A program made the position numbers and the translations under genes. The notes beneath the pieces are model-generated. The model saw only the letters and a program-made list of their open reading frames with translations, ran no database searches and was not told the DNA's origin. Source: Neoscytalidium dimidiatum (Eukaryota > Ascomycota > Dothideomycetes > Botryosphaeriales > Botryosphaeriaceae). Taken from it: a stretch of DNA of 64,000 nucleotides. Of the stretch, positions 1,689-63,185 are shown in pieces. The DNA lies in the NCBI GenBank assembly GCA_037367355.1, contig CM074698.1, forward strand, positions 2,232,001-2,296,000, read 5' to 3'. Within the stretch, counting starts at the first letter, position 1, and each line of letters opens with the position of its first letter.

Positions 1689-2811
1689 ATGGCGTCGAGT
1701 GGATTCCAGGCAGCACCAGGCTGGCGCTGGCCGGATGAGTTTCCGCGATCAGCCGAAGGTCCCACCAGCACAGCGCCCACCGACGATTCTCAAGCTCACC
1801 AACGTGCAAAACCAACCAGTTCATCAAGTATGCCAGGATGGTACGAGCCTGATGAGGAAGTGCGGCATCCGAATGCAACCGCCCAACCTGCAGGAGCAGA
1901 GAACAGGAAGAGCAGGCGGAACCGCTTTTATGGCCCCCGGACTTGTCGCATCTGCCTTGAAACAGTCCTGCCAACTTTTAACCAGCCTTCTGAAAACCTT
2001 CCCTCGATGTTCCAATCTGAACCGAACGTAACGTACGAATCGGAAGAGGGCCGACTCATCAGCCCGTGCAAATGCAAGGGATCATCCCGTTACGTACACG
2101 AAGGCTGCCTCCAATCGTGGCGCCACGCTGATCCTTCGTACGGGAGACGGAATTACTGGCAATGCCCAACTTGCGGATTTCGCTACCGCCTTGAGCGTAT
2201 GGCATGGGGTCGCTTTATCAGCAGCGCCGCTGCTCAAACATTTTTGACCATTGGCATTTTTTTGCTAGCGACCTTCATTCTGGGTTTCATTGCCGACCCA
2301 ATCATCAACCTTTACCTCGACCCGGTTGGGACTGTCATCCCGCTGCGCGGTGATCCGCATGGCTATGACTACTTAGCTTACGAAGAAGACGAGCCCGAGG
2401 GGTGGTCATTCCACTTCCTCAAAGGTTTCGCATCTCTTGGTTTGTTAGGTTTCCTTAAGTTCTTTTTCACTAGTCCCATCCGCTTCTTCCGGATTGGTGG
2501 TGGGGGCTTGGGAGGATCAGGACGAGGCAATACTGGTCGCGACAGGCTGGCGAACATCAGCTGGGTTGTCGTCGTGATCGGTATTGCCACCTTCATTTAC
2601 GTAAGTAAACCGCTGCGGACACAGGATCCTCAAAGTTGACCATAGCCAGGGCGTTTGGAAAGCCGTTCGCGCTTGGGCTCGTCGAACGCTTGAAAAGGCG
2701 GGTGAGCGTGTTATGGATGTGCAGGGTGATGATGATGATGAGGATGAAGACAACAGCTCGGATCCATCAGCCAACAACCACGACGCGCCTCATGGACAGT
2801 CGTCCAACTAA
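1689..2811 (+). CDS. RING-CH (RINGv) membrane E3 ubiquitin ligase
   Basis: Probable membrane-bound E3 ubiquitin ligase of the RING-variant (MARCH-like) class. Exons 1689-2600 and 2650-2811, joined across a 49-nt GTAAGT...CAG intron, give 357 aa. The C4HC3 zinc ligands are visible from about residue 85: CRIC, then CKCKGSSRYVHEGC, then CPTC. A roughly 40-residue acidic insertion separates the first pair from the second, longer than usual. Two or more hydrophobic segments follow (FLTIGIFLLATFILGFIAD and WVVVVIGIATFIY), then a glycine-rich link and an acidic tail. The start is the first ATG in frame; the same frame is open a little further upstream but without another ATG. Substrate unknown. Related fungal proteins sit in the ER or endosome membrane, which is inference here. 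Confidence 0.85.
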
Positions 2812-3461
2812 TCGGACAATGATATCTCCATGCCGAAATGTTCAGTTTACCAACCCGCACACCTTTGAGTTGACACGTCGCCCTTTCCAGCTTCGTTGGT
2901 TTTGGGTTTCAATGTCGTGCCGATCGAGTCTGTGTGCGAAAATTGAAACGTCTCTCGAGTATACGCCCAGGACTTTGACGTCTTGTCTCAGCTTGGGTAC
3001 CGAAAGGCACCGTCACTCCTCCGCTTCCAACCCTGCTCTCATTTCGTAGCGGAGTTGCTTGAGGTTAGGTGGCACATCACGTGCATTGGTGCCGCTATCA
3101 TGTATTTCTATTTTGAATCATATCTACTAAACTTTCCTTTCTCGCTCATGCGTGCTACTTAATTGCCTCTTGAGCGTTCGATCTGCATATGGAGTGGTCG
3201 TCCAGCGAAATTGCGAGCCATGACGTTCAAATAGTCATTTCACATCCGTATGCCACTCGTTCTGTTGCTCATGCAAGCTTCGCTCTCCAACGTGTCTCTT
3301 GACCCCGTTCCTTCTACATTTGCAATTTAGCGTGATGCACGGACCACAGTAGGGAAGATCTTCCATTTGTCCACGCTCTTCTTTATTCTACGCCTCTACT
3401 TTATAAACCTGTCATTTGCGCAAGCCGCCTCTTTCGCGACTCGATCTTCAACTCTCGCAGC
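2812..3461. other. Intergenic, no gene seen
   Basis: 650 bp. It holds the 3' end of the RING-CH gene and the promoter of the next gene. The final 60 bp before the next ATG are pyrimidine-rich, as usual in fungal 5' leaders. No coding frame with family resemblance. Confidence 0.5.
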
Positions 3462-24494: not shown

Positions 24495-25437
24495 TTAGCT
24501 CCAAGTGCTGTTGTATAGCCTGACTTGATCCTCTTGATACTTCATGAGATTTTCCCATTTGATGCATTTGTGGACCTAAGTACTGGTCAGTCACGTACAT
24601 CTGTCTAGTCCCGTACAAACGAACTTACAACTCCCCATCCTAGGTTGTCTTTAGTATACTCTTCCGGAGATCCTGGAGGCGAGTCCGGCTCGAGGACCAT
24701 ATAGTCGGCGCACATGATGCTTAGACGGAGGTACTCAAAACAGTGTTCGACATGCGTGATCCAATCCTCATCAATCGGGGTCTTTGCCAGAGGATCGAAT
24801 GTGCCAGCCTCGTATACTAGCATATTATAGCGTTTGCGGATCACGTTCGCACAATGTAGCTGGTGCAAGTTACTGAGAACGTAGAAGTCCTTGCTCAACG
24901 GCTGCGCTGATGGGGGCCCAGGATTGAATATGAAGAATGGCGCATGAATACCTGGGTCTTTGAGACCCTCATAGTTGTCATGGTCCGGAACATAGATTGA
25001 GTCCGAGCCTGAAAAAACTGTGAGTACCCATATACATACACACGGCTCGGCGGCTTACCTTCAGTAATGCGAGCCCAGTTCTTTGCTGCTTCTTTCGAAG
25101 GGCCCATGAACTCTGGATAAGGGATGAATGGCACATCATGGCGTTCACTGAACAACTCAATGGGTAGAGGGGTGACCGGATTTAGCCCGAAACTGGACAT
25201 TGTTGGCTCCTGCCCTCGACACCAATACCCTATGACAACTCCTGAGCTGAGGAGTAGCAGGGCTAAAGAGCTGAAGAAGAATGCTCTCCGAGGTTCGAAG
25301 ATTTTCCGAGGGGCTGGATACACAAACTCCTCCGCCTCGTAGCCCCCTGCCTTGAGAAGATGGTCTCCCCCCTCTTGGGATTCTCCATCCTGGTCCCGAT
25401 AGGGTTTCTTGTTTTCGAAGAATCTGCTAAGAGCCAT
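24495..25437 (-). CDS. UstYa-family oxidase 1 (DUF3328), RiPP cluster
   Basis: UstYa-family membrane oxidases make the side-chain cross-links of dikaritin RiPPs such as ustiloxin and asperipin. Exons 25437-25059, 25008-24629 and 24575-24495 join in phase to 279 aa. One transmembrane helix lies near residues 45-65 (FFFSSLALLLLSSGVVIGYW). The two HxxHC motifs that define the family are present: HQLHC in FYVLSNLHQLHCANVIRKR and HVEHC in HVEHCFEYLRLSIMCAD. The last exon carries the usual HKCIKW ending. The frame is open for a few codons upstream, but the ATG at 25437 has the right distance to the helix. Divergent from UstYa-2 with a 707-bp shared promoter. Substrate is presumably the repeat precursor at 31669, by context. 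Confidence 0.9.
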
Positions 25438-26144
25438 AATGAAGGAATAATGCACCGAATGAGTGCTGAGTCTACGGACTGCGACGCAACAGCGGACTTC
25501 TGCCAGGCTAAAAGGATTATTTCGGAGAATGGACAAATTGTCCCTGATCGTTTCGGTCCTTCTATTTTGCTACTATGTCCTTTTTTGTCGGCCATTTTAA
25601 GGCCACTGTAGATGATACGAGCGGTGAAGAGACCGCTCGGTGCTTTCAAGGGGCGGTGTCGAGGATAAGACAGCTTGTGTCCCTGGCGTCTCTTACTGTC
25701 TCCGCCAAGACAGTGACTATTTCGGAGGGGATAATAACGGGCAAAGCTGACGATTCATCAGTCCGATGAGACGAGTCAGGTAAGGTCCGTGTTTTGACAC
25801 GTACTGCAGGGGGCTCACGGTCCGAGAGCTTATCAAGACGTAAGTATTCCAGTAGTCTGGTAAGCTGTTCGGCGTTTTGCTTGAGGCTGCTGAGCGACAG
25901 GGTCTCGCCAGCTGGCTTTCATTCCGTTGCAATGACGCCACATGAGGCACAAAATATGTAATTCACCGAGCAGATCGTATTGTAGCCAGTCCACGGCGGG
26001 CCTTGCTTCAATCGTCTCCATAATGCCACCTGTTCTCCGAGGCTCAGGAAAGAATTGGACTCTTCAGAACCCAGGGAGCTTTATTCTGATCCGAAATACA
26101 ATCATTCTTTTTGAATTTCAAGGTCTCGCAACAACTTTGCAAAT
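25438..26144. promoter_or_regulatory. Divergent promoter of UstYa-1 and UstYa-2
   Basis: 707 bp between divergent starts. A perfect 8-bp inverted repeat with a 6-bp spacer lies at 25618-25639 (CGAGCGGT, gaagag, ACCGCTCG); it contains CGG-N8-CCG at 25622-25635, the form bound by many Zn2Cys6 dimers. The decamer TATTTCGGAG occurs twice in the same orientation, at 25518 and 25718, exactly 200 bp apart. Function is inference. Confidence 0.5.
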
Positions 26145-27017
26145 ATGTTTGCTGGACTAAAGGAATACAACAAGCTCCCCCGCAACGAAACCGAAAGTGA
26201 AGGTGAAGAGCCGCCCAGGTGGCAATCCAAACCTCCGCCGCGCTGGCCATACGCTTTGATTATCTTATTTGGCCTTGGATGGATATTCACTGCGGCTTAT
26301 GCGTACAAGAATCGACCCATCGACAACGGACCGCTTCACGTATATCACAATACTCCGATTCCGAAGGAGGTCTTCCAGCCTGTGAAGAAAATCTTCATGC
26401 CAGATGAGAGGTTCATTGGAGACAGTCCAGAAGTCGATGCTGCATGGGACGGTCTGGTAGCAGGTATGAGGTTGTAGAATTCATTGTACGTGTGATTCTG
26501 ACGCGATGTTTAGCGCACGATGCTGTATGGATTGAGAACCCGCAGCAATATGGATTCGACGAAGGCATCGTAGCACCCTTCGATCATCCCAACACTCCAG
26601 ATCCTAAGCCTCAGGACTTTTACGTCATTTCCCTGTTGCATCAGCTCCATTGTTTGAGTAAGTAAACGTGGGCAACATTACACCTGTGTTCCTACTAAGA
26701 TCCGTACAGACATGGTCCGATTTCAGTATTATCAGGAAAGGAGAATGGAAGATACCTCCAAACAGAAAGATGCCGAGATGTGGCAGCTTCACGTTGACCA
26801 CTGCTGGGAGTACTTGCGGCAAGCCATCTCGTGCGGAGGAGACCTGGTCATCGAAGGCAACAGTCCTATCAAAGTTGGAAAAGGGCACGCTACTTCAGTG
26901 ACTGGCTGGGGAGTTGAGCATGACTGTATCAACATCGAGCTGTTGTGGAAGTTTCAGATTGAGCAGGAGGCGAAGTACAATCTCACCTGGCAACACCCGT
27001 CACCTATTGGGCCATAG
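26145..27017 (+). CDS. UstYa-family oxidase 2 (DUF3328), RiPP cluster
   Basis: Second UstYa-type oxidase. Exons 26145-26463, 26514-26657 and 26710-27017 join in phase to 256 aa. A cytosolic tail of about 35 residues is followed by one membrane helix (YALIILFGLGWIFTAAYAY). Both family motifs are present: HQLHC just before the second intron, followed after splicing by NMVRFQYYQE, and HVDHC in HVDHCWEYLRQAISCGGD. The C-terminus has VTGWGVEHDCINIELLW, where UstYa proteins usually have GxGxxHxCRD. The first intron falls right after the segment MPDERFIGDSPEVDAAWDGL, typical of this family. Probably a copper- or metal-dependent oxidase domain facing the lumen; the chemistry on this precursor is unknown. 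Confidence 0.9.
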
Positions 27018-27052
27018 GCTCGCTCTGCGGTCCCTGGACTGCTAGATACATT

Positions 27053-27688
27053 TCAATCCAATCCATACAACCTGAGATCAGCATCCATCCCCGGTGAGGT
27101 CCAAACAGCTCCTTTTATGCCTCCGAACTGTTTCAATGGCTTGATCCCCCTGTCTTCAAATCCCAATCTGCGGAAAACACCCTTCGATGCTTCATTGCTG
27201 GGATCGAAGAGCCCAAAAACGGCATGCACACCCAGATCTCCACGAGCATGCTTGAGGAGAGCACGAGCGGCTTCAGTCGCATATCCTTTCCTCGTGTACT
27301 TGGGAAGTATTGCGAAGCCGAGGTCCGGCGCTGTGAATGAGTCGGGACCGTCACCTTTCGTGAGAGACACCGTGCCGATTGGCTCACATTGCGCAAGACC
27401 ATCGCTGGCAAGTGGCCCCGTGCCTGCATGTTGGGGCTTGAGGCTGACTAGGTAGGTGCCGTATCCGTTGCGCCAGTGCTCTTGTCTGAAACGGCCCGAA
27501 ATGCGCTCGCGCGCTGCCTCACGAGTAACGATAGAGGTCGGTTTGCCACCAATGGAAGAAATGAACTCGGGTGTGTTGTAGAGCTGAACGAGAAAATCAC
27601 AATGTTGATCATTTTCGGGTAGGAAATGAGAAATAATGAGGCGCTCGGTTTCGAGATGGAAATTAGGGTCCAACGAATCCTTTCTCAT
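27053..27688 (-). CDS. GNAT-family N-acetyltransferase
   Basis: Intronless, 211 aa. It begins with the LETERLIISHF segment typical of RimJ/RimL-like GNAT enzymes and has the acetyl-CoA pyrophosphate loop in YTRKGYATEAARALL near residue 135 (R-x-x-G-x-A). Downstream, DPSNEASKGVFRRLGFEDRG is the classic motif B region. It transfers an acetyl group from acetyl-CoA to an amine on a peptide or small molecule; the substrate is unknown. It lies tail-to-tail with UstYa-2, only 35 bp between stops, inside the UstYa group. A tailoring role in the RiPP pathway (N-terminal or Lys acetylation of the cleaved core) is attractive, because the repeat has Lys, but it is inference. Confidence 0.85.
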   Translation of the reverse strand: MRKDSLDPNFHLETERLIISHFLPENDQHCDFLVQLYNTPEFISSIGGKPTSIVTREAARERISGRFRQEHWRNGYGTYLVSLKPQHAGTGPLASDGLAQCEPIGTVSLTKGDGPDSFTAPDLGFAILPKYTRKGYATEAARALLKHARGDLGVHAVFGLFDPSNEASKGVFRRLGFEDRGIKPLKQFGGIKGAVWTSPGMDADLRLYGLD

Positions 27689-27934
27689 CTTTGCTAGCCG
27701 TACGGCCTCAGAGAACAGAGGACATGAGACTGTTCAGAAGAGTGCTGCCTTTTCTGAATTTAAAGGGGCAACATGCAAGGTCCTGACTTGCGGGATTCGT
27801 TCCGCAAACTTAAATCAAGATTCTGAGCCTAAATCCTATCTCATGCACGCAAGACACAAGAACAGTGCGATTGCCAATAGGATGTGTCAATTCCAATATC
27901 CGAAAGTATCATCTTCTAAGAGACCGAAGCATAA

Positions 27935-28878
27935 CTAATCGTGGTGACCGTCGTTCTTGCCCTCCTCATCCTCAATATCTGTCCCAACGTGGTTCCTATG
28001 ACCCGGAGTGTGAGTCACCTTTCCTGCAGTGTATCCAGATCCCTTGATCTTATCAGAGCGGTGCTGGTAGCCCCAGTTGAAGATGTTATCGAAATTCCGG
28101 CATTTGTGGGTGGCGCCCATGCCGTTGATGCCAGCTTCGGTGAGCGGCTCAAAGGTAACATCACCATTGCATTGAATAGCCTGGCGAATATAATCAAGGC
28201 AGTGATCCCGGTGATATCCAACTTCTTCCTGAGGCATGTCCTTGACTTGTTCAGGATAGTAGGCAAAACGGAGGAAGTTCAGGCAGTGTAGCTGGTGGAA
28301 CATGGAGATTCCATATACCTTGTGAGTCTCCTTATTGTTAGGAGCTGGCAAGGACGGTGGAAGGTTCTCGGTTAGTTTGTTTGGGATCTCAATTATCCCA
28401 TCTCCAGCTTGTGTGTTGTTAGCGGTGCTCGAGTTTGATACTTCGGAGTAAACTTACGAGGGGATAGCCTCATCCACATCTCATCCGTTTTGTTCGAAGG
28501 GGGCCCGCCCATGTATGCATGCGGCTGAAAGACCACATCGACATCGTATAACACTTTTCCAGTTAGAGGAATCAATGAAGGGCAATTAGGAGAACGCGTA
28601 CAGTCTGGTTCAAATTCATCTTTCTTTCTGCAGGTGAAACCCTTGAGGCGATAATTGACGTGGCCCCATACAGAGACACCAGCAAGGAAGAACACAAGGT
28701 TAAGTACCAACGCCATGTTGCGCCAATTCATCAGCCGGTGTCGGGCGTTGAAGTTCTTCTGGTTTTCCTCAGCAAGGAGGAAGGCTTTGTCGCTCGCGGA
28801 GAGCCCATGCTCTTCCGAAGTGCGGGAGGAGGAAGGAGAGGATGAAGAAGAACGTACGGCGTCCTTGAATTTCATCAT
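27935..28878 (-). CDS. UstYa-family oxidase 3 (DUF3328), RiPP cluster
   Basis: Third UstYa-type oxidase. Exons 28878-28458 and 28407-27935 give 297 aa; the acceptor (ACACAAG) was chosen by phase and by a CTAAC branch point 12 nt upstream. The cytosolic part is Ser-rich, followed by one membrane helix (NMALVLNLVFFLAGVSVWG). Both motifs are clear: HQLHC in GISMFHQLHCLNFLRFAYY and HRDHC in HRDHCLDYIRQAIQCNGD, followed by GMGATHKCRNF, the usual UstYa ending. A hydrophilic His/Asp/Glu tail is extra. It differs strongly from UstYa-1 and UstYa-2, so the three are not recent tandem copies. Divergent from the dioxygenase gene with 558 bp between starts. Confidence 0.9.
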
Positions 28879-29436
28879 ATCGGAGCAGGCGAAAAATGAT
28901 AAATTGATGAAATGAAAGTGATAGACTGGATTTTACCCGTTGAGTGCGGTTGGCTCGAAGGACAGAAATACCCAGAAATGGTTGACGCCACGAAGACCAC
29001 TTCTTGCCGGTCACCTCTCCGGGTACTTGTAAGATCGTCGTCACTGTCGCTATTCCTAAATGAGAAAGTCATGATGGTGCGGTAAGGCTACCCAGGCCGC
29101 CAATGATTTGCATGGTGGGCGCGTCAAACAAGACGCCGAGCTTCGCCGCCATGGGGCGACCCGCTCCGAACAGCGACCTAGGCGCAAACTAACACGACTC
29201 GTGCTCGACTTCATGTCTTCGAGAAACAAACCTACTTTAGCGCCACAGGTGGCGACCAATAACATGAACAATGGTAACTCAAACTCAAAATTATCACCGC
29301 TATTTGTAGGCCGAGTCGACGATAAAGGCCGATGCCAACAAATACGAGGCCCGTCCGTTGACCCCAATCTGTCCACATCACACATTGCACTGTTTCTTTT
29401 CCACTCTCACAAGATTGCCTTCAGTAACAACACAAC
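28879..29436. promoter_or_regulatory. Divergent promoter of UstYa-3 and dioxygenase
   Basis: 558 bp between divergent starts. One CGG-N8-CCG element at 29008-29021 (CGG, tcacctct, CCG), the same spacing as in the UstYa-1/UstYa-2 promoter. One such match per 500-700 bp is not far above chance, so this is only a candidate site. Confidence 0.45.
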
Positions 29437-30430
29437 ATGACGGCCCAGAAGACAACTGCGTCCAAAGGCGAGCCTGCGAAGACTCCGCGGAACAAAGTGT
29501 TCCCCCTTTCAACTGCTGCACTCATCGTTCCTCTCCTTGCCTATGGTATTTTCAAAGCGCAAAGCGTTGATGTTGCGCACCTGCTGAAGTCAGGACCAAA
29601 TATGGCCCCAAGTAATGGTTCACAGATCCATTCTCTCAATGGGTCACTGGCTCAGACTAGCATTGCCAACATCGACTTTGCTGGCATGCGCGAAGAGTAC
29701 GCTGGTGCTTGTCCGAAACATCAGTACGAGACGCACATTTTCTCTACGGATCCCCTGATTATTTACGTTGAGAACTATCTCCGCTGGGAAGAAACTCAGT
29801 ACCTGCTTAACCTGGCGTAAGAATTCAGTTTCCGAATGTTTGAAGATGGGGCTGACAATAAAGTATAGCGTGCCTTACTACATGAGGTCGCCCGTATCCA
29901 AAGGTTACAATTTGGATGCTTATGACCTCGAAATTCGTTCATCTATGAGCGCGGTGGTACCCAACGACCCCGTTGTCTCATGTATCGAGAAACGATCAGT
30001 TGAGTTCCAGGGATACATGCCTGTCTCGCATCTCGAGGACATCCAAGTTGTCAAGTATGAAGTGGGAGAGCAATTCAGGCCGCACTTCGATTGGTTTTCT
30101 GGCATGAGGAACCCTCGACTTTCCACATTCTTCGTCTATCTGGCTTGCGACGATTGCCTGGGTGGAAGCACGCAATTTCCAGATTATACGGGAAAATTCC
30201 CCGCCAAATGGTGCGAGTTCGTGGACTGTGATCACGAATACGACGACGACATCGGCGGAGTAGGGTTCAAACCAATCACGGGCAATGCCGTCTTCTGGTT
30301 GAACCTGTATCCGAATGGAACTGGGCACCCTGGGGTCTGGCACGCTGGTATGCCAGTCAAGCAAGGCAGAAAGATTGGGCTAAACATTTTCACGAGGAGG
30401 GATCCGATGACTCCAGGTGACACTAGCTAA
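29437..30430 (+). CDS. Prolyl-4-hydroxylase-like 2OG-Fe(II) dioxygenase
   Basis: Membrane-anchored 2-oxoglutarate/iron dioxygenase of the P4H-alpha type. Exons 29437-29816 and 29869-30430 join in phase to 313 aa. A hydrophobic helix near residues 24-41 (FPLSTAALIVPLLAYGIF) should anchor it in the ER. The iron site is visible: His and Asp in QFRPHFDWF, the distal His in GVWHAGMPV, and the Lys that binds 2-oxoglutarate in GRKIGLNIFTRR. Several cysteines (CDDC, WCEFVDCDH) are usual for fungal members. It would hydroxylate proline or another residue in proteins of the secretory pathway. Each precursor repeat has one Pro just before the AYVW core, so it could be a substrate, but that is inference. 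It may also be a neighbour without a role. Confidence 0.87.
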
Positions 30431-31418
30431 TCACTTGTTCGTTGGGAACTCTTGGTCGGCTTGTGGGCCAACAACTTGCTGTTGAATCGCGATATGGAAA
30501 TTTGTACACTAGATTAGAGTCTAGAACGTGGGTCCAGATGCACTGATTCAGAGCACCATTGAAGTGAACCGTGAATTGCCACATAAACTTGGAGTCTCGG
30601 CCTTTCCTTAGTCAAGGACAAGACTGGAGGACCAACAAATTTACCGGTAGTAATTGCACCGGCTAGATATTTGATATCCAATGGCATCCCCTTCCCTAAG
30701 CGTAGTGGACACTTAGTTGGTTTCACTTCGTCTAGCTCCTGACAAAAACATTACCTAAAGGGGAAACACGATGCTCTTCGGGGATATGAGAATGAATCAG
30801 CTTTGACACGTGGACTCGGTATTCCCCACGAACTGCCCAAGCGCAAGGCCGACCAGTCCGCGGCCCTTGTCAACGGACTCGCCCGTGTCGAGGTTTGCAG
30901 GTGCCATGTTCGAGTCGAGGACTCTGCAGCACTTCAGCCGAGAGGGTCATTGCATCAAGCCGAAACAAAACCTAAAAACCAGAGCGCACTGCCTAGGGCC
31001 TCTAGATATGGGTGGCCTTTTCAGGCATGACATCCGCCTATGGAGCCCCAACTATAGCTGATGTCATCGTCGCCCGCACAACTGCCTATCAACACTTTGC
31101 ACCTACTACGCCGCTGTCGCCGCTGTTGCCGCTCATCTCGGTGTTTCTCGTGCACGACCAACCTGAGGGCCTAAGGCCCCATGCGGCTATCCCTCTACGC
31201 GAAGCTGGAATCTCACCGCTGGCGCTGGTGCGGCTCTGGCGCCCGTATACACGACTTCACGATGGAAGGCCTCAGGAGCACAAGCCCACGGTTCTCGCTT
31301 CGCCAGCTTGGTGTCCACCGTAGCAACGGAAGTCCAGAGCAGGATGGAGGCAGATCGTCAACTCGAGGCCCGCCATGGCCGGTGAAGGAGTCGACGACTC
31401 TGTCCTCGACGGAGTTGG
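30431..31418. other. Upstream region of the RiPP precursor
   Basis: About 990 bp between the dioxygenase and the TATA box of the precursor gene. No gene seen. A CGG-N11-CCG arrangement occurs near 30643-30659; spacing differs from the elements in the other cluster promoters. Confidence 0.4.
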
Positions 31419-31424
31419 TATAAA
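31419..31424 (+). promoter_or_regulatory. TATA box of RiPP precursor gene
   Basis: TATAAA in the context GGTATAAAGAGG, about 245 bp before the precursor ATG. Strong TATA boxes mark highly induced genes, fitting a secreted precursor. A 5' UTR intron is likely at 31563-31627 (GTAGGT, then CTAAC and CTTCTTCCCAG), ending 41 nt before the ATG. Confidence 0.55.
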
Positions 31425-31668
31425 GAGGACCAACACTTCGATGTTCGGAAATCATCACCAACAACGATCACTTCTCCGACAACAGCAATCGCAACCACTT
31501 CTATCTCACTTACCCGAGCTCGCTCGCTCTTCGACTCAAAACACTCTCACGCACTTCCAACCGTAGGTCCCGGCCGCAACACCTGACCACCACCGCCAAA
31601 CCGCATCACTAACAGCCTTCTTCCCAGACCACAACCAAGCCCCAAAAAAACAACCCAAACCAGCCAAA

Positions 31669-33552
31669 ATGAAGCTCACCGCCGCCACCGCCGCCGCCAT
31701 CCTCGCCTTCCCCTACGTCGCCAACGCCGCCGCCATCGACAAGGGCGCCATGGGCAAGGCCGTCGTCCCCAAGCGCGCCGCCCAACCCCAGGACGCCGAG
31801 CCCGCCTACGTGTGGGCCTCGAAGGGCGCCAAGCGCGATGCCGCCCCCCAGGACGCCGAACCCGCGTACGTCTGGGCTTCCAAGGGCGCGAAGGCCCGCC
31901 GCGACGCCGAAGCTCAGGAGGACGCCGAGCCCGCCTACGTGTGGGCCTCGAAGGGCGCCAAGCGCGATGCCGCCCCCCAGGACGCCGAACCCGCGTACGT
32001 CTGGGCTTCCAAGGGCGCGAAGGCCCGCCGCGACGCCGAAGCTCAGGACGCCGAGCCGGCCTACGTGTGGGCCAGCAAGGGCGCGAAGAGGGAGGCTGCG
32101 CCGCAGGACGCGGAGCCCGCGTACGTCTGGGCCAGCAAGGGCGCGAAGGCGAAGCGCGATGCCGACGCTGCCCCTCAAGACGCGGAGCCTGCCTACGTCT
32201 GGGCCTCCAAGGGCGCGAAGCGCGATGCCGGCGCCGCCCCCCAGGACGCCGAACCCGCCTACGTTTGGGCCTCCAAGGGAGCGAAGAGGGACGCCGACGC
32301 AGAGCCTCAAGATGCCGAGCCGGCGTACGTCTGGGCCTCCAAGGGCGCGAAGGCCCGCCGCGGCGCGGAGCCCCAGGACGCGGAGCCTGCTTATGTGTGG
32401 GCCAGCAAGGGTGCTAAGCGCGATGCTCAGGATGCCGAGCCGGCTTATGTTTGGGCTTCGAAGGGTGCCAAGCGCGATGCCAGCGCAGAGCCTCAGGACG
32501 CGGAGCCGGCGTACGTTTGGGCCTCCAAGGAAGCGAAGCGCGACGCCAACGCCGATGCTCAGGACGCGGAGCCTGCCTACGTTTGGGCGTCGAAGGGAGC
32601 GAAGCGCGACGCCCAGGATGCCGAACCCGCGTACGTTTGGGCTTCCAAGGGAGCGAAGAGGGATGCCCAGGACGTAGAGCCCGCTTACGTCTGGGCTTCC
32701 AAGGGAGCGAAGCGCGATGCTCAAGATGCCGAACCCGCATACGTGTGGGCCTCTAAGGGTGCAAAGCGTGACGCTCAGGATGCCGAACCGGCCTATGTCT
32801 GGGCCAGCAAAGGCGCGAAGCGCGACGCCCAGGACGCAGAGCCCGCTTACGTCTGGGCTTCCAAGGGAGCAAAGCGTGACGCTCAAGACGCTGAGCCGGC
32901 CTACGTCTGGGCCTCGAAGGGCGCAAAGGCCAAGCGTGACGCTGAAGCCGACCCCCAGGACGCTGAGCCGGCCTACGTGTGGGCATCAAAGGGCGCCAAG
33001 CGCGACGCTCAGGACGCCGAACCCGCCTACGTGTGGGCCAGCAAAGGCGCGAAGCGCGACGCCGACCCGCAGGATGCTGAGCCTGCTTACGTCTGGGCCT
33101 CTAAGGGAGCCAAGCGCGACGCTGAACCTCAAGACGCGGAGCCAGCCTACGTCTGGGCCTCGAAAGGAGCCAAGCGTGACGCTGAACCCCAGGACGCAGA
33201 GCCTGCCTACGTCTGGGCTTCCAAGGGCGCCAAGCGCGATGCCTCTCCTCAGGACGCCGAGCCTGCTTATGTGTGGGCCTCGAAGGGTGCGAAGCGCGAT
33301 GCTGAGGCTCAGGACGCGGAGCCGGCATATGTTTGGGCTAGCAAGGGCGCGAAGCGTGACGCGGAGCCCCAGGATGCCGAGCCCGCGTATGTGTGGGCTT
33401 CCAAGGGAGCTAAGAGGGATGCTGAGCCTCAGGATGCAGAGCCTGCCTATGTGTGGGCCAGCAAGGGTGCGAAGCGCGAGGCTGAGCCCGGGCTCAAGGC
33501 TGGGCTCAAGGATGGTGGCCGCAAGGGTGATGGTCCGACTGAGGATAACTAA
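31669..33552 (+). CDS. Dikaritin-type RiPP precursor with 28 repeats
   Basis: Intronless, 627 aa. Residues 1-20 form a clear signal peptide (MKLTAATAAAILAFPYVANA). After a short spacer ending in KR come 28 tandem repeats of about 20 aa. The unit is DAEPAYVWASKGAK followed by R, ARR or AKR and a short acidic spacer such as DAQ, DAEPQ or DADAEPQ. The segment AYVWASK is identical in all 28. The exceptions nearby are one DVEP (repeat 15) and one SKEAK (repeat 12). The tail is GLK-rich without repeats. Each unit ends in KR or RR, so Kex2 would release 28 copies; DA/EA spacers could be trimmed by a dipeptidyl peptidase. This is the layout of UstA/PhomA-type precursors, and three UstYa genes lie within 8 kb. 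The core is inferred to lie in AYVWASKGA. Confidence 0.9.
   Translation: MKLTAATAAAILAFPYVANAAAIDKGAMGKAVVPKRAAQPQDAEPAYVWASKGAKRDAAPQDAEPAYVWASKGAKARRDAEAQEDAEPAYVWASKGAKRDAAPQDAEPAYVWASKGAKARRDAEAQDAEPAYVWASKGAKREAAPQDAEPAYVWASKGAKAKRDADAAPQDAEPAYVWASKGAKRDAGAAPQDAEPAYVWASKGAKRDADAEPQDAEPAYVWASKGAKARRGAEPQDAEPAYVWASKGAKRDAQDAEPAYVWASKGAKRDASAEPQDAEPAYVWASKEAKRDANADAQDAEPAYVWASKGAKRDAQDAEPAYVWASKGAKRDAQDVEPAYVWASKGAKRDAQDAEPAYVWASKGAKRDAQDAEPAYVWASKGAKRDAQDAEPAYVWASKGAKRDAQDAEPAYVWASKGAKAKRDAEADPQDAEPAYVWASKGAKRDAQDAEPAYVWASKGAKRDADPQDAEPAYVWASKGAKRDAEPQDAEPAYVWASKGAKRDAEPQDAEPAYVWASKGAKRDASPQDAEPAYVWASKGAKRDAEAQDAEPAYVWASKGAKRDAEPQDAEPAYVWASKGAKRDAEPQDAEPAYVWASKGAKREAEPGLKAGLKDGGRKGDGPTEDN
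31792..33480 (+). repeat. Tandem repeat array coding the RiPP core peptides
   Basis: 28 units of mostly 54-72 bp. Positions 31792-31917 (two units, 126 bp) are identical to 31921-32046, so the first four units arose by a recent two-unit duplication. Elsewhere the same amino acids are written with many different synonymous codons (TAC/TAT, GTG/GTC/GTT). Confidence 0.9.
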
Positions 33553-52351: not shown

Positions 52352-54657
52352 ATGCTTTGCGATGTCTGCACCCGCATGCTCACAGGCGGAATGGAACGCC
52401 GGAAGCTTGACGTGTACCTATTCGCCTACCCGCACCACTCCAGAACGGGAGCCTTAAGGATGTCGCAGGAGCTGGGCTGCTCAATCTGTGTTCCGCTTGC
52501 CGACGCAATACAGCAAGAGATCGATATCTCGCAAGATCAGGATTATTCAATAATGCCAAACCTGACACGGATTTGGACAGAAGACTCCGGCTACCGTCTG
52601 GATTTCGTATGGAAGGAGGATAGGGATATCCAGACGTTTGTACTGTGGCCAGCCGACGAAATATTGAAGCATATTGGTAGGGTTTCACTGCCTGTCGTAA
52701 AAAAAAAAAATTAATTTAATGATCGGCAGCAGATTCCGATGAACAGGAGCCTGAGAAATCAAATTTCGGCAAGCTCCAGACGAACCCAATCCTAGGGGCA
52801 GCAAGGGAATGGCTGTCACGATGTAATTGTGCAAGATTCTGGGAGAAGGAAAAGACCGCGTTGTTCTATCCCAGACGGCTCCTCAGCCTCGAGAACGTAA
52901 GGAAGGCCGTCGAAACGCAGGGCGGACACGAAAGTCGATATCCGATGGAAGCGAATCTTGAAAATTGCAAAGTCAGGTTGATTGAGAGTCAGGATCTCGA
53001 TCTGTATGCACTCGAGCATAACAAATACGTCACGTTAAGCCATTGTTGGGGACATCCCGGCAACGTCAGACATCAACTGAGGCTCACTAAAGACACCGAA
53101 GAGGAGCTACAACAGGACGGAATTGAGCTGGGAGTTTTCCCGAAGACCTTTCGAGATGCGATCCTGTTTGCTTCCCATCTGGAGGGAGTTGGATACATTT
53201 GGATCGATTCCCTTTGTATAAAGCAAAGAATGGGCTCAACCAACTGGGATAGAGCCGCTGAAAGTGACTGGCTCGAGCAGTCACGCGCCATGGATAAGGT
53301 TTACGGCGAATCCTATTTGAATATCTCCGCTACATCCGCTGGAGATGCACGAGGTGGCCTTTTCCTCCGGCATCAGCCCAAACATAGTTGGGATGATCTG
53401 ATAAGTATCAACCTGGAACTTGCCGGTGGTCCACAGAGCTCCGGGGAAGATGAATCCCTAAATTCGCAGCACACCTTTCTTGGCCATCTTTCTAGTCGAG
53501 AACCACAGGACTCCAACTCCTCCAAGAAATGGAAGCTCATCGACGTCTCATTCTGGGATAATTTTGACCGCGCTCCCGTCCACCAGCGCGGATGGGTGGT
53601 GCAAGAGAGATTTTTATCCCCCCGAGTGATGCATTTCTGCCCCAAACAAGTTGTCTGGGAATGTTCCGAGTTCGACTGTATCGAGGGGCACCCACAAGGG
53701 ATCCCAGTTTTTCAGACTCGAGACACAGAAATTGTACGCAGGAGCGGTTTCAAAAGAGACATTCTCGCGAATATTGGCCCAAATCTCCAAGTATCCAGCG
53801 TGGTTGATCCGCAAGACACAATTGAGGATGGAGATCAGTCTCTCCTTCCCTTTTTACGGCTTTGGACAGACACAGTGGAGGTGTATTCCCAGACGAAGGT
53901 CACCATGTCCAGAGACAAGTTGATTGCGCTCTCTGGAATCGCGACATGGTTCAGCACGCATGCACCCACTGCGTTTATCTCCAGTATGCATGACCACTAC
54001 AGTTCCGGTTACATCGCGGGAATGTGGCAAACGTATCTTGAACATCAGCTCTTATGGCGTGTGGACGACGTCTTCAAAGACGGTATTTTCGAGAATCATT
54101 CTAAGCGTGCTGTGGATAGGGCCCCGTCATTCTCCTGGGCAAGTATAGATGCGCCGCAAGGCATAATTCATGGCGAGGACATGGAAAATCTCTCAAGGGA
54201 GCTGTTATTCAAAGTCGTGTCTTGCTCTGTCGACTTGATAGACGAAGAGAACGGATACGGTCTGGTCAGAGAAGGCAGAGGACATGTTGAGCTCAAGATA
54301 CAGTATTTGAAGAAGGTTAAATTGCGGATGCTGGAGTCTTCTTGCACCTCACTGTGGGGCTGGACTTTGATCGACGATGAACCGTCTGACCAAGAACACG
54401 TGGATATCTACCGTGATGCACCTGAGTCTGACCTCGATATTTTCTCCGAAAGCGTGCAAACATACTGCGTACCGGCTGCATGGGAAAACGGAGGAGAATC
54501 TCGCTATCTTGTCTGCTTCCTTCTGAGACTTGAAAGTGGAACAGAGAGCTCTCTGAAGTTCAGGCGAATTGGCCTGACTAAGCTGCCGCGCGACAGCGAA
54601 GATATTCCCAACGCTTTGCTAAAGGAACAAGTCGAACAGACTATATTTATCATTTAG
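52352..54657 (+). CDS. HET-domain protein
   Basis: Heterokaryon-incompatibility domain protein; such proteins trigger cell death on fusion of unlike fungal strains. Exons 52352-52676 and 52730-54657 join in phase to 750 aa. The N-terminus has a CDVC...C type start (LCDVCTRML, LGCSICVPL). The HET domain starts near residue 208: YVTLSHCWGHPGN, then LGVFPKTFRDAILFASHLEG, then YIWIDSLCIKQ, then AMDKVYGESYLNISATSAGD and GGLF. Downstream are RGWVVQERFLSPRVMHF and DRAPSFSWASIDAPQG, usual for large HET proteins. A run of 12 A lies in the intron. The gene looks intact. It neighbours a STAND-type ankyrin gene, consistent with a self/nonself recognition patch. Confidence 0.9.
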
Positions 54658-58380: not shown

Positions 58381-61300
58381 CTATATACCATCTGCATCCT
58401 TCATCACCACATCCGCCGGTCCGAACTCCGCTCCAACCACTGCTTGTTCAATATAATCCTCCTCGTCATCATCCTCATCGTCATCCTCGTCATCCTCGTC
58501 GTCATCCTCGTCCTCATCCTCCTCCTCCCCTTCCAAACCAGCCCCATCCACCTCCTCATCCTCATCCGCACCACCCGAACCAATCCCCTCACCCATCCCC
58601 CTCCACCTCCTCCCCTCCGCCAACAAAGTCAGCACCGCCCGATCCGCCGCCTCGGTCTCGGCATCGACCCTGCTCTTCCCCTCGACCCAATCGCCCACCC
58701 ACCGCTCCCCGACGCGCACCCTACACCTCACGACCGCGTCCGCCCTCCCCCCCTCCTCGTCGTCGTCCGCCCGCGCCCACCCCACCTTCTCCGCCCCGGC
58801 CAGCCGTCCCAACAGCGTCTTCGGATGCAAACACTCGACCCCGTCCCTCAGAAACCTCTCCAGCACCCCGACCAGCCCCAGCCTCTCGAGAAACGCCTCG
58901 CACTCGCCCAACCCGTCCCCGTCCCCGTCCCCACCTCCGATCCCGCCCTCCCCGACCGTCGTCGAATCCACGAAAATCGCGCCCAACACCGCCTCGACGA
59001 TGTCCGAGAAGAACTTCTCGGCCCCGATCCGCGCGAACAGGCGCCACGGGTACCGCCGCTCCGTCCGCAGCGCGCGCCACACCCGCTCCCTCAGCTCGTC
59101 GTGCCGCGCGGCGGCGGCGTCCGCCGCGGCGTGGATGCCGGGCGCGGAGTGGCGCATGAAGTGCCACAGGGCTCTGCGGGCGGGGGCGGCGGGGACGGCG
59201 GTCGGTTCGCCGAGCAGGGAGGGGCTGGTGGTGGCGGGCGGTTGTGCCGCGGCATGTTGCTGGGAGAAGACGACGTCGGTGCGGGGCTCGTGGATGCAGG
59301 CGTCCATGCAGAGGAAGGCGAGGAAGGAGGCGTTGACGATGGAGGCGCGGATGGCGTGCATGGTGAAGTGGGGGAGCTCGTCCGGGGCGTGGCCGCGGGG
59401 AGGAGGGGTGGCCGGGGGGCGGTCGTTGTGGGCGGGTTTGCGGTACGCGTAGAGGCGGCGGCTGACGAGGTGGTCGAGCACGGCGTCGCCGAGGTATTCG
59501 AGGCGTTGGTAGGAGGAGGTGGCGTCCTCGCGGTAGGAGGTGAAGGAGGGGTGGGTCAGGGCTTCGAGGAGGAGGTATTTGTTTTTGAAGGTGTAGCCGA
59601 TCAGCTCTTCGACCCGTTCGAGGTGGATGCGTGGAGCGGAGGCGTGCTCTTCGGCGGCGTGATTAACCAGGATTCGTCTGGATTCCTCTATAGGGCACCA
59701 GGGGAGTTTTGGTAGAAGGGTGGCAATGCAGGTGTGTGCTTTGGGCATGCCTCCTTCGATGTAGGCCGCTCCGATGAGAGATTCCACGACATCAGCCAGG
59801 GTCTTGGTGGACAATGGTCGTGTCTCAGGGAGTGCGACGGATGCTACAGCAAGGATGTCACGGACATAGCGCGGGCGCCATTTAGCACCAGTGAAAGCCT
59901 TTGTGATGATGAACTTGTCGAGGCCTACGCTGCGTGATGCTTTCGCCAGAGAACCATTGGAGACTACGCGATCCTTTTTCTCGGTGAGGTAACTCTCTGG
60001 CCAGTGTAGATGTTGCGCCATCAGCTGCACTGCTGTACTGAACTTGAGGATGCAGTCGCCGAGGAATTCCAATCTTTGGTAATCGTATTCGTTCGTCGAC
60101 GATGCGGTGATGGCACGGAGGACCATCTCGTGATTAGCAAAGTGTACAGCCTTGACAGCAGTGTCGCAAAGTTCTTGTACAATCATGAAAAGCTCGAAAC
60201 GATGCAGTATAGACGGCATGAATGCCGCGAACAGCGAATAAGAAGCCGGCGACCTGTCGATGAGAAAGTCCTCTGCTGGGGCCATATACTCCTTCGAGTA
60301 CATGGCATTTCGCGTGATGTCCCGTATGTGATGCAAGAAGTCCCGCCGTTTTGGGAACGCCGAGAAGACGATGTGGACAGCAGGCTGCTTCGCCTCTTGC
60401 GGCTGTTCGCTGGCTGACATATCCACGTCAACAGTTCGAAAATCACGGAACATCAGGAGATGGCCTTCGATACCCTTTTGACGGACTATGCCGATTGTCG
60501 GGTTAAGACCTGCTTTGATATCTGCGTAGACGTCGAGTGCTGGTCTGCTACCATCGTCAAAAGTTCCCAGATGGTCTCCTCCATGGGCTGATCCACCGTA
60601 AGAAGCTATAAGAAACAGGAAGTCATGTCTCACATCGGTCATACGTGAGCCGAAAACAGAGTGAAGGAGGACCCGGGTGGAACGTTGAAACTTATCCACT
60701 TCGGCTTCGCTCAGGTTTAATGTGCCCATTGGCTCACTTGTCAGAGCATACCTGTGGTTTTCATTCCAGTAGAGAAGAAAATCAGGAATTTGGAGAGTTG
60801 GCTGAGGTAGTAAGAGTACCAAAGATATGGTCTGCTCATGAAGAGATAGGGATAATTTGGTCTTGTACCAAAGCACGGGTGTTCCCGTAGTGCCCAGAGA
60901 TCTCGCTACCGCAAGCCAGGGGTCGAGACGAGGAGCGACTTGAAGCATTGAGGGCCTTTTGTCAATGACCCCGAAGTCAGGACCATCGTCTGCATCACTC
61001 AGCAAGGGCAGAAGGTTGTCGTTCACCAAGCCCGCTTTGTGAAGGGCAACATATGCCTGGAAGGCTGCATCCTTCCTGGCTGCTCTCTCCGTCAACCAAG
61101 CTCTCGAGCCTCGGTGTTGGCGTATCTTCGCATTGATGGATATTGGGAGAGTGACAGTAGCGGTGATCCAGTCATTCTCATCTATCCCAAAGGAGAAACG
61201 AGGCCGCAGATCCACATGTTGTCCACCACCAAGAATGGCGCAAAAGTGGTAGAGGTGTTGCATTGAATTGTCAAGCGTGAGCAGCGCCCTAATGAGGTTA

Positions 61301-63185
61301 GTGAAGGCAACTTCCAAGTGATTGAAGACACGCACCCAGTACTCTCGCAGCGGTAGAATGCATCGCCTTCTTCCTCGAGCTCTTCACGCTCCTCAGCTGC
61401 TTGAACTTGGCGCAAGTCATTGAGGTAGGCCTCTTTCATTTGCTCCTCGAGGTCTAGCCACTTGTCCGGAGACTTGGCCAACGAGGACTCCTCAGGCAGC
61501 ATGATAACGAATTTTGAATCTTGTTTTCTTGCACGGCCGCGACGCTGGATGAAGGATTTCAGGTTCTTGGGCGGCTCGTAGCAAATCACGATGTGGCAAT
61601 TTGATACGTCGATTCCTTCCTCAAGAACGCTAGTGGCCACGATCAGATTCTTCTTGCCGGCGCGGAAGTCGTCAAGCGTCTGTTGCTGGTGTTTCACTTC
61701 TACCAGGTCACCTATTCCGAGATGGGACTTCCGGTGAACAGTCATAGAGGTCCCAACAAAGGTTCCAACATTGAACAAATGCCGAAGCTCGGGATGATTG
61801 GACAAGACGTGGTCCATGGCAGCCACAGTAGCGCGCTGCTCGACGAAGATTATTCCAGTGAAGTCTTTCTTCCACTCTGACAACAGGAGATCGATCAGAT
61901 ATTGCATCTTGGGAGATAGATTCTGATGCACTACGTCGTCCTCGCTTATGGGGGGAGATGCAGCAACGTGTGATAGCATTCTATGGAGCTTAGTGCCTTC
62001 CTCTTCAGACCAGTCTAGAAGCATGTGGCTAGAGTTGGCTAAGAATGCGTCAAATCTTGCAATGCAGCTCCGAATGTAGAACTCGGTGGCGGCTCCGCCG
62101 ATTTCGTTGTAGATGCCCCATGCTCTCGAGTAGACTTTCTTCAGCTGCTCATGGATGTAGGTCTTCCTATTGGTCAAAAACTTTTCGAGCTGCCGTAAGA
62201 TGTCAGCTTTGTTTTCGTCAGCAGCCTCGGCCGCTTTCTGCTGCAGACTCAAGACATGCGGATCCTCCCGGATATCGTATGCAAAATAGGCAGCGGCTAA
62301 GGTCCTGAGAATAGGAGGGCCACTGTATGGGTCCAAGGAGCGATTGGGGTACTTGAGCTGCACGAGTTCTGGTCTATGTGTGAAGCGAAGTAGCTCAGTA
62401 CGATTGACCTTTGGGGTTTTGGCGATTGCATTTAGACTGCGCTCGATAAGTTCCAGGCCTTCTGCCTTCCCGCTCACGACGGGGCTGGCAGTTAGACCAA
62501 GAATTTTGGGGAGAGACTCGAGGCAGCCGTTGAGCAGGAGCGGGTGGTAGAATCGTTGCATAATGGCGCTGGCTGGATGGTTTCCGCGACACATGTGAGC
62601 CTCGTCGAAAATGAGAAGGGCGATCCTGGCCAGCTTCACGAAGCCGTGGGTAAGAGCGTCCAGCAGAATGGCAGGCGTGGAGACGACGACCCGGACATTC
62701 TCGAGTACAGCATCCCAGATAGCCTGGTCGGTCCATCGGTCGACATTGTCGTTGCCGCTAAGAAAGCGGAGCTCGTAGGCGGGCAGGTGTTTCTCGAAGA
62801 GGCATGATTGCTGTTGGCATAGCGTGACGGTTGGGGCAACAAACCAGACTAGCTAATCCTGACGTCAAAAGATAATCGACTTTGACTTTGGACAAAAGGA
62901 AGGAGTGAGCGCACCTGGTCCGGGCCGCAGCTCTCGAGCTCAGCCTGAGTTCGGGATATAGCGCTGGGGAGGTCAGTGTGGGCCGGAGTGCACAGGGCGC
63001 AAGGTCATACACGTGGGTCTTTCCGCTGCCCGTGTCCATCTGTCAGGCCAATGAGCATGGAACACGCCAGGTTGTGATATATGACGTACAGCAACGATGA
63101 TGTTCTGCTTCAAGCTCTCCTCTACCATCTCAGCCTGATAAGACCGGAGGCGGAAAAAGCCGGCATCCTCAGCGACCGAGCCCAT
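58381..63185 (-). CDS. DCL2: Dicer-like protein 2
   Basis: RNA-silencing nuclease that cuts double-stranded RNA into small RNAs, the main antiviral and transposon Dicer in fungi. Exons 63185-63090, 63039-63011, 62963-62915, 62852-61336 and 61288-58381 join in phase to 1532 aa. Helicase: Walker A in MDTGSGKTH (residues 33-41), DEAH at about 141, GLTASPV, and the C-terminal helicase motif QRRGRARKQD. A dimerisation-type segment follows. RNase IIIa has YQRLEFLGDCILKFSTAVQL and RNase IIIb has YQRLEYLGDAVLDHLV with distal FSDIVEAVLGAIFVD, so both catalytic Glu/Asp sets look present. A dsRNA-binding-like segment (HPKTLLGRLAGAEK, then AETEAADRAVLTLL) is near the end. The C-terminus is an acidic run of about 50 residues. 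The ATG at 63185 was chosen because family homology begins there; the frame is open upstream. Confidence 0.92.

Follow-up and report, generated by a model that had tools for sequence, protein, structure and literature searches.

In the fungus Neoscytalidium dimidiatum, a secreted repeat protein with a Tyr-Val-Trp core is encoded within a few kilobases of several putative peptide-modifying enzymes, which raises the question of what peptide this locus produces and whether its Tyr and Trp become bonded. The window, i.e. the whole stretch of DNA analysed (64,000 nucleotides), holds a cluster of six genes: the precursor, three UstYa (DUF3328) genes termed U1 to U3, a GNAT and a prolyl-4-hydroxylase-like (P4H-like) enzyme (Table 1). 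U1-U3 are all located upstream of the precursor, each starting or ending at most 7.2 kb away from it. A preliminary description had read the locus as a RiPP cluster of the UstYa type, its core being Tyr-Val-Trp, and the domains, motifs and precursor support it: the precursor with its 28 Kex2-spaced YVW units is encoded where it had been placed, the three UstYa-type genes, with two HxxHC motifs each, all score above the PF11807 cut-off, and the GNAT and the 2OG dioxygenase are both present. The lack of nearby tyrosinase and S41 peptidase genes was likewise confirmed. None of the 21 PF00264 matches of the genome lies on the contig of the window cluster (C4) or on that of a second copy described below (C3), and of the three PF03572 matches of the genome, the one on the contig of the window is 1.2 Mb away. 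No P450 or methyltransferase was found among 40 Pfam-scanned sequences, a selection of 36 window stretches and four spliced models, and Rfam gave no match within the window.

Table 1. Features of the six-gene cluster (window coordinates; percentages are identities to the C3 copy).
Feature	Length (aa)	Position	Strand	Introns	Evidence
U1, UstYa	279	24495..25437	-	25058-25009, 24628-24576	HQLHC...HVEHC; PF11807 E 5.7e-22; C3 60.4%
U2, UstYa	256	26145..27017	+	26464-26513, 26658-26709	HQLHC...HVDHC; PF11807 E 5e-32; C3 63.2%
GNAT acetyltransferase	211	27053..27688	-		PF13302 E 1.1e-21; C3 62.9%
U3, UstYa	281 (two-intron model; a one-intron model of 297 aa is also possible)	27935..28878	-	28601-28554, 28457-28408	HQLHC...HRDHC; PF11807 E 2.5e-31; C3 66.3%
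P4H-like 2OG-Fe(II) oxygenase	313	29437..30430	+	29817-29868	PF13640 E 1.7e-7; C3 61.5%
RiPP precursor	627	31669..33552	+		ORF, hydropathy, trimming test, C3 paralog

The precursor starts with a signal-like hydrophobic segment, as judged by hydropathy, followed by the 28 units, which are built around PAYVWASKGA. Between KR/RR sites, 27 of them read AYVWASKGAK and one AYVWASKEAK. The nine-codon core PAYVWAS.G occurs in 25 DNA versions and only two protein versions; this, together with the recurrence of the six-gene set in the genome, indicates that the cluster and its repeats are not due to chance. The only Pfam match of the precursor, HHV-1_VABD (E 1.6e-7), was rejected as a low-complexity artefact, no single stretch passing on its own. 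When eight intergenic regions from both clusters were searched for a shared promoter word of 8-12 bases, none stood out: words common to two stretches slightly exceed a Markov null (186 vs 152 at 9 bases), and those common to three or more do not.

All six genes recur on C3 in identical order and orientation, the five enzymes displaying 60-66% identity between copies. The flanks do not match: beyond the 24.5-33.6 kb interval, similarity is limited to an HSP70-like match and a further match of 31 amino acids. It is from this comparison that the cluster limits and the conservation of PAYVWAS are drawn. The C3 precursor contains 11 units, the eleventh being degenerate and devoid of Tyr, while Tyr and Trp are kept in the other ten; YVWAS is thus found in 28/28 window units and 10/11 C3 units. 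For four enzyme pairs, pS reaches 0.81-0.82 (saturated) vs a pN of 0.24-0.28. A recent duplication within the Botryosphaeriaceae was considered and set aside: the U1 tree (16 of 30 U1-like matches) rejects a single Botryosphaeriaceae clade with p-AU 0.014, while the U3 tree (17 of 56 U3-like matches) does not clearly do so with p-AU 0.064, both tests having been chosen after the trees were seen. The window copy is placed near Sordariales in the U1 tree and near Sphaerulina in the U3 tree. As these placements differ, the two copies may have originated by old duplication or by transfer. The 86 UstYa homolog matches divide into 30 U1-like and 56 U3-like, and none has U2 as its best match; the whole six-gene set is therefore so far known from this genome alone.

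Each of the three UstYa proteins possesses one N-terminal hydrophobic segment, and the paired motif HxxHC(x)nHxxHC is intact in all six UstYa proteins of the two clusters. No convincing match to a solved UstYa structure was obtained, by sequence or by profile. In the structure modelled for the U1 ortholog from Neofusicoccum ribis (moderate confidence, mean pLDDT 62.5), each HxxHC lies in a separate helix. The P4H-like enzyme has an N-terminal hydrophobic segment similar to those of the UstYa proteins; its best solved relative is the prolyl-4 hydroxylase 2jij (E 1.2e-15), its HFD and distal His are conserved in the alignment with the C3 copy, and its relatives in the genome are that copy and one protein at 43%. 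The GNAT exhibits no strongly hydrophobic segment, and its matches elsewhere in the genome are limited to two pieces of the C3 copy. The GNAT thus carries neither signal nor anchor, yet its presumed substrate is secreted, and the core proper offers no Pro to the P4H-like enzyme; both observations speak against the pathway proposed below.

Trimming of the repeats was predicted with three rules: Kex2 cleavage after KR/RR, Ste13 removal of XA/XP dipeptides, and Kex1 removal of C-terminal basic residues. Kex2 cleavage and basic residue removal leave 18 products of the window precursor, reduced to five by the XA/XP rule; 26 of the 28 units then begin with QDAEP, and nearly a single peptide results, QDAEPAYVWASKGA, whose linear form has a computed [M+H]+ of 1492.707. 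Loss of 2H would bring this value to 1490.691, -2H+O to 1506.686 and -2H+acetyl to 1532.702. Applied one residue out of frame, the rule leaves 16 products, and shuffled spacers give 18.9 on average, none of 2000 shuffles reaching five. With the C3 precursor, eight products become five, against eight out of frame and a mean of 9.2 in shuffles (0/2000); the predicted main peptide is AEAAPAYVWASAG, with a computed [M+H]+ of 1263.600, or 1261.585 after loss of 2H. Trimming up to Tyr would leave, for the window precursor, YVWASKGA (881.452, or 879.436 after loss of 2H). In the genome, the kexin P-domain was matched once, and DPP-IV gave two strong matches. An even number of residues precedes Tyr in 27/28 window and 9/10 C3 YVW units. 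This parity was discarded as evidence for a mature peptide starting at Tyr: the XA/XP rule accounts for it, with a constant remainder before Tyr.

On these grounds, the locus is best read as a UstYa-type RiPP cluster (a dikaritin in the broad sense) of a new subtype, with a repeat precursor, nearby UstYa genes and paired HxxHC motifs. Taken as a whole, the six-gene pathway outlined here, deduced from sequence, is probable. Kex2 would cut the precursor after KR/RR, a Ste13-like dipeptidyl peptidase would strip the XA/XP dipeptides, and Kex1 would take off the C-terminal basic residues, yielding mostly the two peptides given above, one for each copy. The Tyr-Val-Trp part would be oxidised by the UstYa copper enzymes in the lumen of the secretory pathway, most likely with formation of a ring that involves Tyr. 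The P4H-like enzyme may hydroxylate one residue, for which the invariant Pro before Ala-Tyr is the first candidate. In ustiloxin biosynthesis, the methyltransferase UstM acts on the N-terminus; here, the GNAT would take its place and acetylate the peptide N-terminus at a late stage. Acetylation of Lys is less likely, since this residue is absent from the C3 core. The end product would be a small secreted peptide.

Whether the oxidation joins Tyr to Trp is a separate matter. Judged from the sequences, such a cross-link is plausible, at somewhat less than an even chance, and a different UstYa reaction has a similar likelihood. In that case, which comes close to an even chance, the same cluster would form no Tyr-Trp bond, its UstYa enzymes hydroxylating, desaturating or halogenating the peptide, or forming a ring between Tyr and a different position, for example Val, Ser or a beta-carbon. 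DUF3328 proteins are also implicated in desaturation, and the presence of three UstYa genes makes several reactions likely. The available text of PMC12435403 implicates DUF3328 proteins in halogenation and hydroxylation besides macrocyclisation, and a single UstYa-type enzyme links Tyr side chains to beta-carbons through ethers in asperipin-2a (PMC6514808); the family rule invoked in the preliminary description, by which Tyr is joined to the residue two places on, does not hold in view of both. Against this alternative stands the conservation of Tyr and Trp in all window units and ten of the C3 units, although it does not single out Trp, as the residues around them (P, A, V, A and S) are conserved as well.

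Two further explanations were considered. The core of ascomycete alpha-pheromones contains Cys/Trp, and it is conceivable, if improbable, that the repeats are linear secreted signalling peptides of this kind and that the enzymes encoded nearby act on something else. When 5.8 billion proteins were searched twice, with about 8000 best word-sharing candidates scored each time, no precursor homolog from other species was returned; the sole relative, retrieved in one search and not in the other, has CLWHGQGCW repeats and is, by its appearance, presumably an alpha-pheromone precursor. The YVW[G/A][G/S] core is also ranked among predicted signalling peptides in the available part of PMC6339444. Conversely, the same five enzymes, three of them UstYa, accompany the precursor in both copies, both precursors lack Cys, and KEPs with a pheromone or mating-factor annotation have no DUF3328 neighbours, with three exceptions (PMC7329392). 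A cluster of the ordinary ustiloxin/phomopsin type, separated from its tyrosinase, is very improbable. The UstYa genes and the precursor layout are of that kind, and tyrosinase genes are present on other contigs; however, YVW replaces the YxI core in all window units and in ten of the eleven C3 units, neither C3 nor C4 has a tyrosinase match, no S41 peptidase is near, and a tyrosinase at C7:2570-2586k is accompanied by two UstYa genes and by another precursor, one with AVQYWD repeats.

The signal-bearing precursor, the Kex2-spaced Tyr cores and the UstYa-family enzymes are shared with ustiloxin and phomopsin, whose cores are YAIG, YVIG and YVIP, which need a tyrosinase and, for ustiloxin, involve a methyltransferase where the window cluster has a GNAT; the P4H-like enzyme of the window cluster is a further difference. 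The ustiloxin precursor is thought to yield 13-14-mers first (PMC6514808). Asperipin-2a also combines a UstYa-type enzyme and a Tyr core without tyrosinase, but its four genes comprise a single UstYa gene, a reductase and a transporter, without GNAT or P4H, and its core is FYYTGY (PMC6514808). In the lichen 'Clan R2' clusters, a UstYa-type gene adjoins GNAT genes; these are multi-copy, no repeat precursor was found, and P4H is not mentioned in the available part of PMC12048977. Finally, the paired HxxHC motifs recall those of a cyclochlorotine hydroxylase, CctR, whose substrate is not known to be a RiPP. According to the available text of PMC12435403, CctR acts on cyclochlorotine, carries the motif HxxHC(x)nHxxHC as well as a membrane helix, has each HxxHC in its own helix as in the N. 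ribis model, and was shown to hold a two-copper centre.

The cluster had been called undescribed, which is too strong for the core and for part of the enzymes: U1-like and U3-like proteins occur across many ascomycetes, and YVW[G/A][G/S] was listed in 2019 as motif 4, a conserved secreted-peptide core of Kex2-processed repeat proteins, in the available part of PMC6339444. YVWAS is an exact fit to it, and KR sites and XA/XP dipeptides are common to both; that text presents a predicted secreted peptide and describes no enzymes, UstYa neighbours or modification. No paper tying this core to these enzymes was found in the literature, and the link looks new. UstYa-linked repeat precursors amount to 1758 of 7878 KEPs (PMC7329392), and few of their products are known. 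The present case connects a conserved but orphan motif of secreted peptides with a defined set of five enzymes, in two diverged copies with an identical core, and since exact peptide masses are predicted, the model is directly testable. We tentatively propose a peptide that is acetylated at its N-terminus, hydroxylated, and bonded between its Tyr and Trp side chains by copper UstYa enzymes without a tyrosinase, the same subtype perhaps lying behind the orphan YVW[G/A][G/S] peptides of other ascomycetes. Should Tyr and Trp indeed be joined, the known reactions of copper UstYa enzymes would be extended by a new type of linkage.

The preliminary description of a RiPP cluster with a Tyr-Val-Trp core was right, and the case is stronger than first reported: six genes lie together in the window, and the same set occurs again on C3, another contig of this 43.76-Mb genome. 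They encode three UstYa-family (DUF3328, PF11807) proteins, U1 to U3, a GNAT acetyltransferase, a prolyl-4-hydroxylase-like 2OG-Fe(II) oxygenase (P4H) and a Kex2-spaced repeat precursor. Introns were assigned from splicing rules and from similarity with the C3 genes rather than from RNA, and a one-intron model of U3 is a possible alternative. The precursor holds 28 YVW units, 27 of them containing AYVWASKGAK, and both HxxHC motifs are present in U1-U3 and their three paralogs. The dikaritin-type assignment holds in the broad sense of UstYa genes beside a repeat precursor.

Features of the window and of related loci (bare positions are those of the window)
Feature	Contig	Position	Strand
Window	C4	2232001-2296000	
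Six-gene cluster: U1 (-), U2 (+), GNAT (-), U3 (-), P4H (+), precursor (+)	window	24495-33552	
Enzyme genes of the cluster	window	24495-30430	
HET (heterokaryon incompatibility) domain protein	window	52723-54657	+
Dicer-like gene (helicase, Dicer dimerisation, RNase III domains)	window	58381-62852	-
Precursor of the second copy	C3	2247.7k	
DRKVIAAPESLPDSDAILPYKEKR-type Kex2-repeat precursor	C3	about 1441.0-1441.7k (2543-3211 of extracted stretch)	-
UstYa gene near it	C3	1443545-1443903	
RiPP-like cluster with tyrosinase	C7	2570117-2585547	
AVQYWD-type repeat precursor	C7	2576731-2577426	-

A genome search with the window precursor returned a single relative, the C3 precursor of 262 aa, in which 10 units read AYVWASAG and an eleventh, degenerate, lacks Tyr. 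At its locus the order and orientation of all six genes match those of the window. Protein identities between the copies are 60.4% (U1), 63.2% (U2), 66.3% (U3), 61.5% (P4H) and 62.9% (GNAT). When every window ORF of at least 60 aa was compared with 69.8 kb of C3, only two matches fell beyond 24.5-33.6 kb, one HSP70-like and one of 31 aa; the duplicated unit is therefore the six genes, GNAT and P4H included. In the genome search GNAT matched nothing besides the two cluster copies, and P4H had one further match, at 43%. The genome also holds a different RiPP-like cluster, with a tyrosinase, two UstYa loci and its own repeat precursor, and a third Kex2-repeat precursor of seven units like DRKVIAAPESLPDSDAILPYKEKR.

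Between the copies, the four enzyme pairs computed differ by 0.81-0.82 at silent sites, which is saturation, and by 0.24-0.28 at amino-acid sites. The nine-codon core of the window precursor exists in 25 DNA versions across 28 units and in two protein versions; that of C3, in 10 and one. Mean pairwise pS between core units is 0.66 (window) and 0.71 (C3), with mean pN of 0.046 and 0.056, which must be owed mostly to serine codons, because TCN and AGY both code serine and the method counts them as amino-acid steps. P-A-Y-V-W-A-S is common to both precursors, as is the following G, one unit excepted. Third-position GC is 0.53-0.60 in the window enzymes versus 0.83-0.95 in the C3 copy. Together with the grouping of window U1 with Sordariales, this gap makes either transfer or an old duplication possible.

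A profile built from U1-U3 and their paralogs matched 86 proteins, fragments among them, of which 80 carry two HxxHC motifs; by best match 30 are U1-like, 56 U3-like and none U2-like. In nine species the longest contig listed for a U1-like protein equals in length that listed for a U3-like one, a weak hint that both lie on one contig, since five of these contigs are longer than 2 Mb. In three of the nine, the gene numbers of the pair are three apart, as for U1 and U3 here: N. ribis (SLS56_011128/011125), Macrophomina (MPH_00046/00049) and Penicillium vulpinum (N7479_001344/001347, its U1-like protein being distant at 41%). In trees built from 22 selected matches of each type, window U1 groups with N. 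ribis (100/100) and C3 U1 with Lasiodiplodia (99/99); window U3 groups with N. parvum and N. ribis (99/94), and C3 U3 with Lasiodiplodia, Macrophomina and a second N. ribis gene (88/97). From these groupings the fungus probably belongs to the Botryosphaeriaceae, close to Neofusicoccum. The Neofusicoccum parvum U3 ortholog reads LQDHC instead of HRDHC at its second motif and may have lost one copper-binding His.

The core itself is not new: YVW[G/A][G/S] is already in print as a conserved core of Kex2-processed repeat proteins (KEPs), the listed motifs occurring in at least four species (PMC6339444). In the literature searched, largely without subscription papers, the string YVWASK was not found, nor YVWAS in papers matching four YVW strings, nor, in the accessible portions, a statement tying YVW cores to UstYa, GNAT and P4H genes. 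A survey counted 7878 KEPs, 1758 with DUF3328 neighbours (PMC7329392), and its figures or supplements may include the YVW type. Clusters of DUF3328 and GNAT are described in lichens (PMC12048977) and nine dikaritin clusters in Venturia (PMC9632046); the excerpts of a Botryosphaeriaceae genome paper (PMC8336260) do not mention RiPP clusters or ustiloxin among the terms searched. A three-DUF3328 gene group is up-regulated in Sordaria protoperithecia (PMC3472292), and the Sordaria U1 relative SMACR_07667 is numbered differently, so no link is claimed.

Trimming was computed as a Kex2 cut, removal of C-terminal basic residues, and removal of XA/XP dipeptides from the N-terminal side, as stripped by Ste13 (PMC6339444). 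The first two steps leave 18 distinct products from the 28 window units, and the XA/XP rule reduces them to five: 20 of QDAEPAYVWASKGA, 5 of QDAEPAYVWASKGA+KA and three single variants. Shifted by one residue, the rule leaves 16, and shuffled spacer residues give a mean of 18.9, with five reached in 0/2000, a control that overstates independence as the units are related by duplication. For C3, eight products become five, with AEAAPAYVWASAG in 6/10, versus eight out of frame and 9.2 in shuffles (0/2000, with the same overstatement). A search of the genome for such proteases gave a single kexin P-domain match and, for DPP-IV, two strong ones. The ustiloxin precursor is thought to yield 13-14-mers first, trimmed later by unknown proteases (PMC6514808); by this analogy, the final ends of the product may differ from those that the rules predict.

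CctR, from the UstYa family, is a dicopper enzyme that relies on HxxHC(x)nHxxHC (PMC12435403). In the structure predicted for the U1 ortholog from N. ribis, with a mean pLDDT of 62.5, helix 167-186 carries the motif at 170-174 and helix 199-220 the one at 207-211; taken in blocks of ten residues, the scores are 75-81 from 171 to 220 and 57 for the block that ends at 170. The residues joined are not readable from sequence, and the Tyr-Trp bond proposed earlier is a fair but tentative prediction. By simple hydropathy, each UstYa protein and P4H has one N-terminal hydrophobic segment, and GNAT has none of that strength; hence the secretory lumen would be the site of oxidation, and acetylation would happen late or in another place.
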